Of a stretch of 64,000 bases of DNA, positions 47,787 through 51,749 are shown piece by piece (position 1 is the stretch's first letter; every line of letters starts with the position of its first letter). A program made the translations under genes and the position numbers. The DNA lies in assembly GCA_017961685.1 (NCBI GenBank), contig JAGCWW010000040.1, forward strand, positions 124,001 to 188,000, read 5' to 3'. The DNA is from Acholeplasmatales bacterium. GTDB taxonomy: Bacteria; Bacillota_I; Bacilli_A; Acholeplasmatales; JAEDCM01. The notes below the pieces were generated by a model. That model saw only the letters and a list, made by a program, of their open reading frames with translations, was not told the origin of the DNA and made no database searches.

Positions 47787-48653
47787 TTATTTTAAGAAAA
47801 CGCCTGTTCTACTCTTATAAAATCTATCAATTTCAATGTAGTGTTTAAAGATAAAAATTGATAGAATAAACATAGGTATAACAAATACGATATGGTATAT
47901 ACAGAAATACTTTTGTACTGTTAAATAATCCCTATTATATAGTGGTATAACTATCCATGAAATAACAAATATAAACTGCATTAAAATGTTAAATGCATCT
48001 AGTATTGCAGAGTTAAATCTTAATCCTGCACAAAGTATAAATACAAGCATGATAAGTGAGGTAATTAAGCCATTTTCATAAAGTGCAAATACACCAATAA
48101 ATAGGTCATTATGCATAGCTAAACCTATAGTTATTAAAGTAATTAAATAACATAATCCAATGATTGTAAACATGAAGCCAAATGGGTTATCAGGTTCACC
48201 TACATTATCATATCCCCCTGTTTGAACTGATGCGATAAAATGTAATAAAACAGGTATAAAATTTATGATATTCCACATACCAGGAGCTATTAAAATAGCT
48301 AGTGAATAATTAAACCAAACACTATCTCTTACACCTTCAGTTTTCGTTAAATCAATTAGTTCCTTTAAGCCTATTAAACCTATTACGATATAAGCTAAAA
48401 ACAATAGAAGCATTATACCATTTGTAATAGATTCCGCTCTATTTTTTAAGTGATATAAATACCAAACTAAAACAATTATAAACATAACTAAAAATAAAAA
48501 GAAATTAGATCCAAATGGTATCTTTATGGAATTAATTAAAGTATTATTCATATTTTCTGTTTTGTCATGGATGATATATCCCAAATTAAAAAAGGCTGAA
48601 CAAAACAAAGAGAATACGGATAATGATAGAATAACGATACGTAGTTTCTTCAT
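47787..48653 (-). CDS. Polytopic membrane protein, unknown
   Basis: Not recognised. A 288-residue protein with seven to eight hydrophobic helices and short polar loops; the longest loop (about 140-157, QTGGYDNVGEPDNPFG) is polar. No transporter or enzyme motif is visible. Ribosome site AGGGAG; a TATAAT about 20 bp upstream lies just after the phosphatase-gene terminator. It is downstream of the kinase-vWA-PP2C genes on the same strand, but the terminator between them argues for separate transcription. Confidence 0.72.
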   Translation of the reverse strand: MKKLRIVILSLSVFSLFCSAFFNLGYIIHDKTENMNNTLINSIKIPFGSNFFLFLVMFIIVLVWYLYHLKNRAESITNGIMLLLFLAYIVIGLIGLKELIDLTKTEGVRDSVWFNYSLAILIAPGMWNIINFIPVLLHFIASVQTGGYDNVGEPDNPFGFMFTIIGLCYLITLITIGLAMHNDLFIGVFALYENGLITSLIMLVFILCAGLRFNSAILDAFNILMQFIFVISWIVIPLYNRDYLTVQKYFCIYHIVFVIPMFILSIFIFKHYIEIDRFYKSRTGVFLK

Positions 48654-48693: not shown

Positions 48694-48721
48694 ATAAAAA
48701 AAGACACAGCAATTGTGTCTT
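48694..48721 (-). terminator. Terminator of the kinase-vWA-PP2C operon
   Basis: AAGACACA / TGTGTCTT perfect 8-bp stem with a 5-nt loop and T7 on the minus strand; the stop codon overlaps the stem. Confidence 0.87.
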
Positions 48722-49706
48722 AAATTATACTACTAGTAAATTCATCCTTATTTCTTTCAATCATTCCAAGCTTTGCTAAAGACTTTAAACGATATAAGGT
48801 TTTTCTTTTACTTAAGTTAATGAATTTGGCTATATCTAGCAATTCTTTTGTTGTTGAAGTATATTTTAAAATATTGAATCTTTCTTGCAAAGATGAGTCT
48901 TTTGAGTTAAGTTTTATATCAAATAATTTGCATTTTTCTTTCTTTGATAATTGATTGAATGTTGCTTCATCAATATAGTTAGATGCGATTAAAGCAATAC
49001 TACAATCATCTGTTGTTCTTTCATGGATTTCATAATCCATTAAATATTTTACGGTGTCTAAATATGCAGTAGAAAAAGTATATTGTAAACCAATAATAAG
49101 CTTTGCAATAGCAAATGCTGGTTTTTGTAATTTTTTATTATAAAGTGAGGCACTTGATCCATCTGACATTAAGGCAAATCCTTGGAAGCCAGTAGTCTTA
49201 CCCTTTAGTAATCTTGCCTTTTCAAAGGCACGTGGTGATGTAATAAAGTAAGTAGCATTTGCGAACTCACCATTATCTGGCATTGTTAGAGTTTTTAATT
49301 CACCATTTTTAAGTCCGGCAATCAATCCATCTCCAACATGGAATACCATTACATCATCATTTTTTATTGCAACACATAAAAGTGTACTTGATAATTTTTC
49401 TTTATCACAATTCATTTCACTAGCTTTATTTTCGATATCATCAACAACATGATTTACAATCTTTGTGATAACCTCATTTGCGTTTGAAATATTGATCAAT
49501 TCATCAAAGTTTTCAGCGATATATTTGCATATAGATTTGCACGCAATAATCGCTCCAACATCGGAAAATTCATAACTTCCAGCTCCATCAGCTAAAGCTG
49601 AAACTATAACTCCGTTTTGATTATAAGAAAATGTCTTATCTTGGCATACTTTTTTAGCTTTTATGTGGCTTTTTCCAATCACTTCATAATTAAGTGTTTT
49701 CCACAT
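48720..49706 (-). CDS. PP2C-type protein phosphatase with C-terminal winged-helix-like domain
   Basis: A 328-residue protein. Residues 1-250 form a PP2C phosphatase of the compact YegK-like type: metal ligands in ALADGAGSYEFSD, HVGDGLIAG, LMSDGSSAS and TTDDCSIAL, all acidic positions kept. Residues about 252-328 form an added helical segment (STTKELLDIAKFINLSKRKT, then LKSLAKLGMIERN) that reads like a winged helix-turn-helix with a final beta hairpin. That fusion is unusual. GTG at 49715 is part of the GAGGTG ribosome site, so the ATG at 49706 is used. Last gene of the kinase-vWA-phosphatase operon, so it probably reverses phosphorylation by the kinase and may also bind DNA. Confidence 0.85.
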   Translation of the reverse strand: MWKTLNYEVIGKSHIKAKKVCQDKTFSYNQNGVIVSALADGAGSYEFSDVGAIIACKSICKYIAENFDELINISNANEVITKIVNHVVDDIENKASEMNCDKEKLSSTLLCVAIKNDDVMVFHVGDGLIAGLKNGELKTLTMPDNGEFANATYFITSPRAFEKARLLKGKTTGFQGFALMSDGSSASLYNKKLQKPAFAIAKLIIGLQYTFSTAYLDTVKYLMDYEIHERTTDDCSIALIASNYIDEATFNQLSKKEKCKLFDIKLNSKDSSLQERFNILKYTSTTKELLDIAKFINLSKRKTLYRLKSLAKLGMIERNKDEFTSSII

Positions 49707-49736
49707 ATTCTTCACCTCAAAACTTACATACTTTTT

Positions 49737-51661: not shown

Positions 51662-51749
51662 TTAAATCACCTCCATTTTTTCCTACACTTTTATAATAAC
51701 ATAAAATTAACTTTTTTACTACAAAATACATAGTATTTTATTTATTTTT

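Follow-up and report, generated by a model that had tools for sequence, protein, structure and literature searches.

TerY-P systems have been described as sets of a vWA protein, a PP2C phosphatase and a Ser/Thr kinase with a C-terminal zinc ribbon, replaced by an OB-fold in an antiphage variant, in the available text of PMC11090510; the designation is also used in PMC7699616 and PMC10889362, and in the parts of these two sources at hand the trios protect against phages. The related Escherichia coli proteins are YegL (vWA), PphC, also called YegK (PP2C), and YegI (kinase), the last of which is dephosphorylated by PphC and reported to be membrane-bound in the accessible text of PMC13232886. A further system in which a PP2C balances kinases is KKP (PfkA/PfkB/PfpC), where, as far as PMC11341870 is available, inhibition of the PP2C by a phage protein sets toxic kinases free.

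The window, that is the whole stretch of 64,000 nucleotides from an Acholeplasmatales bacterium analysed here, was found to carry a variant form of the TerY-P-like vWA/PP2C/kinase module (Table 1). The three genes are adjacent on the minus strand, separated by gaps of 20 and 21 bases. The module resembles the TerY-P triad in combining all three kinds of gene within a single operon, and in having a vWA protein with a MIDAS motif, an intact PP2C core and a kinase homologous to trio kinases. It differs in that neither a zinc ribbon nor an OB-fold, nor a PIN, RQC or CFI-box domain, was detected in the kinase (Pfam, E<=0.01), which also contains no CxxC pair, a departure from one feature that defines TerY-P in the strict sense (zinc ribbon or OB-fold on the kinase), and in that the PP2C is extended by a predicted winged helix-turn-helix (wHTH). 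By tblastn the window vWA, PP2C and kinase are homologous to YegL, PphC and YegI, respectively; PphC (253 aa) has no tail, unlike the window PP2C, and the reported membrane location of YegI (PMC13232886, in part) is counted as a difference from the window kinase. The trios of Fusobacterium vincentii and of Lysinibacillus capsici pFN9B share the PP2C tail with the window, while their kinases, unlike that of the window, are 769-860 aa long and carry PIN, treble-clef and CFI-box domains; the Lysinibacillus trio includes an extra J-domain-like gene.

Table 1 Features of the trio locus in the window, with positions in the window and residues of the PP2C protein.
Feature	Position	Strand	Basis or remark
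Intrinsic terminator directly after the PP2C stop	48701..48721	-	hairpin -8.8 kcal/mol, z -4.58
PP2C gene	48720-49715	-	ORF, GTG start, 331 aa
Predicted wing hairpin, residues 318-331	48723..48764	-	first strand aligned with MarR; hairpin by eye
Predicted recognition helix, residues 303-317 (KRKTLYRLKSLAKLG)	48765..48809	-	aligned with MarR recognition helix
Predicted wHTH helix 2, residues 289-298 (ELLDIAKFIN region)	48822..48851	-	AlphaFold2; aligned with MarR helix 2
Predicted wHTH helix 1, residues 276-285	48861..48890	-	AlphaFold2 helix, low confidence
Linker, residues 245-275	48891..48983	-	fast-changing part of the tail, congener comparison
PP2C phosphatase core, residues 1-244	48984..49715	-	Pfam PP2C_2, 1.9e-45
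vWA partner, 234 aa	49737..50441	-	Pfam VWA, 1e-12; MIDAS DxSxS...T...D by eye
Ser/Thr kinase, 399 aa	50462..51661	-	Pfam Pkinase, 3.9e-7, 30.2 bits against a cut-off of 31.7
Extended -10 element TGnTATTAT	51693..51701	-	by eye; promoter scan did not call
17-bp palindrome AAAATAC-TAT-GTATTTT, candidate operator	51723..51739	-	upstream of the kinase gene

The product of the PP2C gene is a PP2C family phosphatase with a complete core. The PP2C_2 match covers residues 13-200 (155 bits against a cut-off of 24), and the metal and catalytic motifs QD, DGAGS, GDG, SDG and DDCS are all present; across all eight aligned PP2Cs the motif residues are mostly invariant and the Asp motif columns entirely so. 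The last motif, TTDDCS, ends at residue 239, and the core (to residue 244) is followed by a C-terminal tail of about 85 residues. The original prediction had placed a small winged HTH of two to three helices and a hairpin beyond the PP2C core, in 48720-48950, i.e. residues 256-331 and the stop codon. Its position outside the core was borne out, since the normal PP2C core of relatives does not include it: 11 of the 15 full-length trio PP2Cs compared lack the segment. Eight of these range from 245 to 270 aa (G317, 245; Paenarthrobacter, 247; G424 and G428, 250 each; PphC, as above; S. meliloti and a prophage-like contig, 256 each; Deinococcus, 270); the 298-aa Photobacterium protein was also counted as tail-less, its extension lying outside the comparison, and the PP2Cs of G257/G189 bear a different extension of about 65 residues, in which nothing aligns with helix 3.

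The nature of the tail was approached through sequence profiles. With Pfam, HTH_27 matched the full PP2C protein at E=0.0018 and the tail alone at E=2.2e-4, where 21.9 bits fell 0.3 bit short of the cut-off of 22.2; the Lysinibacillus tail gave weak matches to the wHTH families E2F_TDP (0.0055), Rrf2 (0.02) and CggR_N (0.061), while the Fusobacterium tail alone matched no Pfam family, a result that counts against a role in docking on nucleic acid. The PADLOC CARF3 model also matched the tail (E=0.0048), which was used as a hint of a wHTH. A profile of four tails (window, the congener L001, F. vincentii and L. capsici) was then compared by hhalign with 14 MarR-family proteins from the genomes of relatives, and scored 34.1 (P=1.9e-5); none of 100 column shuffles of the profile reached this value (mean 10.8, maximum 15.9). 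Each half of the profile behaved likewise: the Fusobacterium and Lysinibacillus pair scored 23.4 against a shuffle maximum of 18.2, and the window and L001 pair 26.5 against 22.2, in both cases with 0/100 shuffles reaching the score. In the alignment, which is limited to this part of the tail, residues 288-324 pair with helices 2 and 3 of MarR and with the first strand of its wing. Five non-wHTH proteins or sets scored 10.5-14.9, and PadR (two sequences, 14.4) and the RQC wHTH (one sequence, 9.5) did not exceed this background; the match is thus of the MarR-like type.

A PDB sequence search with the tail profile returned 21 matches, of which 19 carry the names of transcription regulators or HTH proteins from many different families, with weak E-values throughout (0.08-2.5). 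Three shuffled profiles run as controls gave 8, 2 and 5 matches, the best of one control (E 0.011) being RPA32 chains, in a region that we take to be the winged helix of RPA32. Single PDB E-values were therefore dropped as evidence for a wHTH, and only the diversity of the families sets the real profile apart. The Lysinibacillus tail alone had a sole match in the PDB search, a mitoribosomal protein.

Structure prediction and fold search had been proposed with the original prediction as its check. AlphaFold2 modelled the tail (two sequences) with a mean pLDDT of 63.4 and the whole PP2C (three sequences) with 46.1; besides the two helices of Table 1 it drew, at low confidence, a third from residue 303 on, and the hairpin, read from the sequence, was drawn as a low-confidence helix with no wing formed. 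With this low-confidence model Foldseek gave no match at E<=0.001 and VIA-align none at Z>=5, and no MarR-type wHTH family was among the fold-search matches listed; given the weakness of the model, these searches speak neither for nor against a winged helix. For the same reasons the assignment rests on sequence, through the profile match to MarR proteins, by which we judge that the tail is very probably a winged helix. It would correspond to MarR-type or Csa3-type winged helices in helices 2 and 3 and the first strand of the wing, and differ from them in being a short-winged C-terminal appendix of an enzyme; MarR regulators proper are stand-alone dimers with helices flanking the wHTH, and the tail does not have this form.

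The same C-terminal extension is present in the PP2Cs of F. vincentii and L. capsici pFN9B, to which the window PP2C is 40% and 32% identical, respectively, over nearly the whole length; with L001 and the window, this makes four tail-bearing proteins from three lineages. Within the window's order, 14 of 160 genomes matched the PP2C at E<=1e-15, and in the twelve that remain when G002 and the genome of the window are set aside the open frames are 251-255 residues long; G001 holds only the final 20 PP2C residues, at a contig end. PP2C homologues occur in 2246 records of the plasmid collection and vWA homologues in 2268, so that the trios are widespread, and in two of the 2246 PP2C records the match spans 80% or more of the query. 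The tail alone as query found nothing in that collection, where it missed the two known relatives too. A search of viral contigs with alignment A1 retrieved one trio, tail-less, and none was found with alignment A2 or with the Fusobacterium and Lysinibacillus PP2Cs; the phage collection gave one match to the PP2C, confined to the core. The record NZ_CP084075.1 (L038; 2.1 Mb), labelled a plasmid of F. vincentii, is probably the chromosome, judging by its size.

In the tree of PP2C cores the proteins of Gram-positive bacteria and Fusobacterium, with and without the tail, cluster together with support (98/96) and PphC falls outside. The presence of the tail needs three changes on this tree and 163 of 500 shuffles were as low, so that the tree does not decide between a single gain followed by losses and several gains, both of which fit. 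As the same fusion occurs in distant bacteria, the PP2C-wHTH protein looks like a real variant of the known trio. No description of such a fusion in a trio was found in the literature consulted, whose scope did not take in the 2012 TerY-P paper (Anantharaman et al.).

Modules of nucleic-acid type recur in these trios, the PIN, zinc ribbon and RQC domains on the kinase and the OB-fold in print, whereas that of the window lies on the phosphatase. Trio kinases with an N-terminal PIN nuclease were seen in L038 (1953-5215), L039 (2652-5234) and L040 (2850-5291), those of L038 and L039 with treble-clef and CFI-box domains as well; the Paenarthrobacter trio kinase carries PIN, and in L040 a separate HTH_17 protein is encoded just upstream of the trio kinase. 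In L058 (6881-8449; G317:C141) the trio kinase ends in an RQC winged helix (Pfam E=1.4e-11, above cut-off), and in this trio a wHTH on the kinase appears, from the sequence, to take the place of one on the PP2C, which is tail-less. The idea that the fusion is a new wiring for such trios is therefore apt with respect to the other modules seen here or in the literature consulted, which sit on the kinase, and needs correction in that Fusobacterium and Lysinibacillus have the same fusion.

The tail is basic (pI 9.48-10.00) and the core acidic (pI 5.74-6.25) in all four proteins, and the predicted recognition helix has a net charge of +5.8. Between the two congeners, residues 300-331 are identical at 31 of 32 positions, and residues 246-280 at 23 of 35 (dN 0.288); dS by the NG86 method exceeds 1.3 and is thus close to saturation, which makes dN/dS ratios rough. 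In comparisons with Fusobacterium (26/82 identical in the tail, 102/241 in the core) and Lysinibacillus (15/79 and 88/239), conservation of the tail lags behind that of the core, and this is counted against docking on nucleic acid.

Upstream of the kinase gene, the palindrome of Table 1 is invariant within the last 88-90 bp before the start in all three congeneric genomes, just upstream of the extended -10 element and next to the -35 position. The exact 17-mer occurs once per genome, at the trio promoter, in each of the three; one-mismatch copies also occur. When the three AT-rich promoters were shuffled 2000 times each, palindromes with 7-bp arms arose by chance in 376, 841 and 191 cases, so that only conservation and uniqueness favour a candidate operator. 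A near copy with three mismatches in G000 sits inside a coding frame and was rejected as a second operator. A longer TACTAT/ATAGTA repeat was also discarded, the spacing being off by one base in L001 and one-mismatch copies being present elsewhere in the window.

On these grounds it is proposed that the tail may be a nucleic-acid-docking module of the phosphatase, possibly acting on the promoter of its own operon, a reading to which we give an even chance; nucleic-acid binding as such, judged from the sequence, is put slightly above that. The wHTH would bring the phosphatase, and through it the whole trio, to DNA, where the phosphorylation state set by kinase and phosphatase could be read or reset; the likeliest single site would be the operon's own promoter with its palindrome, and docking there would lead to a phosphorylation-linked autoregulation. 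Counted in favour are the wHTH profile, the many regulator and HTH families among the weak PDB matches, the basic tail of all four proteins, the fixed part comprising recognition helix and wing, the modules on kinases of other trios and the unique palindrome; counted against are the poor structural model, PadR and RQC scores at background, the chance frequency of palindromes and the use of winged helices as protein-protein modules. Autoregulation through the palindrome is offered as a tentative suggestion. It also seems unlikely, if conceivable, that in this lineage, with a kinase in which the nuclease and zinc-ribbon parts of its relatives are missing, the trio works through a DNA-bound phosphatase: the PP2C would sit on the operon's own operator by means of the wHTH and dephosphorylate the kinase, the vWA protein or DNA-bound regulators there, and a bacterial phosphatase would then be its own sequence-specific transcription factor. 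A functioning example of a balance between PP2C and kinase that acts on a DNA-binding protein, MvaU, and has a tie to phage defence is already known in KKP; it differs in having two kinases, in that no vWA protein is mentioned in the available part of the source, and in that the DNA-binding protein is a separate, unfused substrate (PMC11341870). The trios give phage defence in some hosts, and the module on the phosphatase, the compact operon and the one candidate operator would make a link between phosphorylation and DNA directly testable.

Winged-helix folds also serve as protein-protein modules, and the tail could instead hold the kinase or the vWA protein, the phosphatase acting on its partner with no contact to nucleic acid. 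The action of PphC on its own trio kinase (PMC13232886, in part) agrees with this, as does the retention of the wHTH in the window lineage despite a kinase with no detected nuclease or zinc ribbon. On the other hand, the basic charge extends to the predicted recognition helix, and since PphC and most trio PP2Cs are tail-less, a tail is unnecessary for partner docking in general; we regard this explanation as rather unlikely.

Less probable still is that the wHTH acts as a sensor of foreign or damaged nucleic acid when a phage infects, whereupon the phosphatase would be switched off and the kinase released. The antiphage function of TerY-P trios (PMC10889362 and PMC7699616, in part), the phage inhibitor that frees the KKP kinases (PMC11341870, in part), the PIN nucleases on the kinases of sister trios and a related trio within the prophage-like contig L057 would suit it. 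Against it, the window trio lies among housekeeping genes kept in congeners and in no defence island, it is matched by no PADLOC model, and its kinase has no detected effector domain. That the tail is a helical extension, degenerate or of some non-wHTH kind, with no function of its own is highly improbable: weak single-sequence HMM scores, the poor AlphaFold2 model and a core tree that leaves its history unsettled, with losses possible, would allow it, but the profile match stands well above shuffles in two independent pairs and residues 300-331 are nearly identical between congeners at near-saturated dS.

The genes around the window trio, named by eye, include a CorC-like protein, a prepilin peptidase, rluB, cmk, S1 and der, with efp in relatives; the order is kept in the rumen MAG RUI193 (L001) and found piecewise in L063 and L079, from a third genome of the genus. 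Close to the end of the contig, the kinase frame of this third congener (L079, 17-1060; G001:C152) finishes with unrelated residues, as though the assembly were chimeric there.

Other arrangements were seen among distant trios. In L057 (5319-8693; IMGVR_UViG_3300045454_000139) a vWA/PP2C/kinase trio lies between terminase-like and portal-like genes, identified by eye, and looks like a cargo cassette of a prophage. In L059 (4450-12000) and L060 (5302-14001) two vWA genes flank the PP2C and kinase genes, and the PP2Cs have a different C-terminal extension; downstream, by eye, are zinc-ribbon and coiled-coil genes and, in L060, an AAA ATPase gene.

In the window, the terminator at the PP2C stop marks the end of the trio, so that the gene downstream (47787-48653), which encodes a membrane protein, is probably separate. 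This protein matched no Pfam family and changes much faster than its neighbours: congeners share 164 of 288 aligned residues (dN 0.344).
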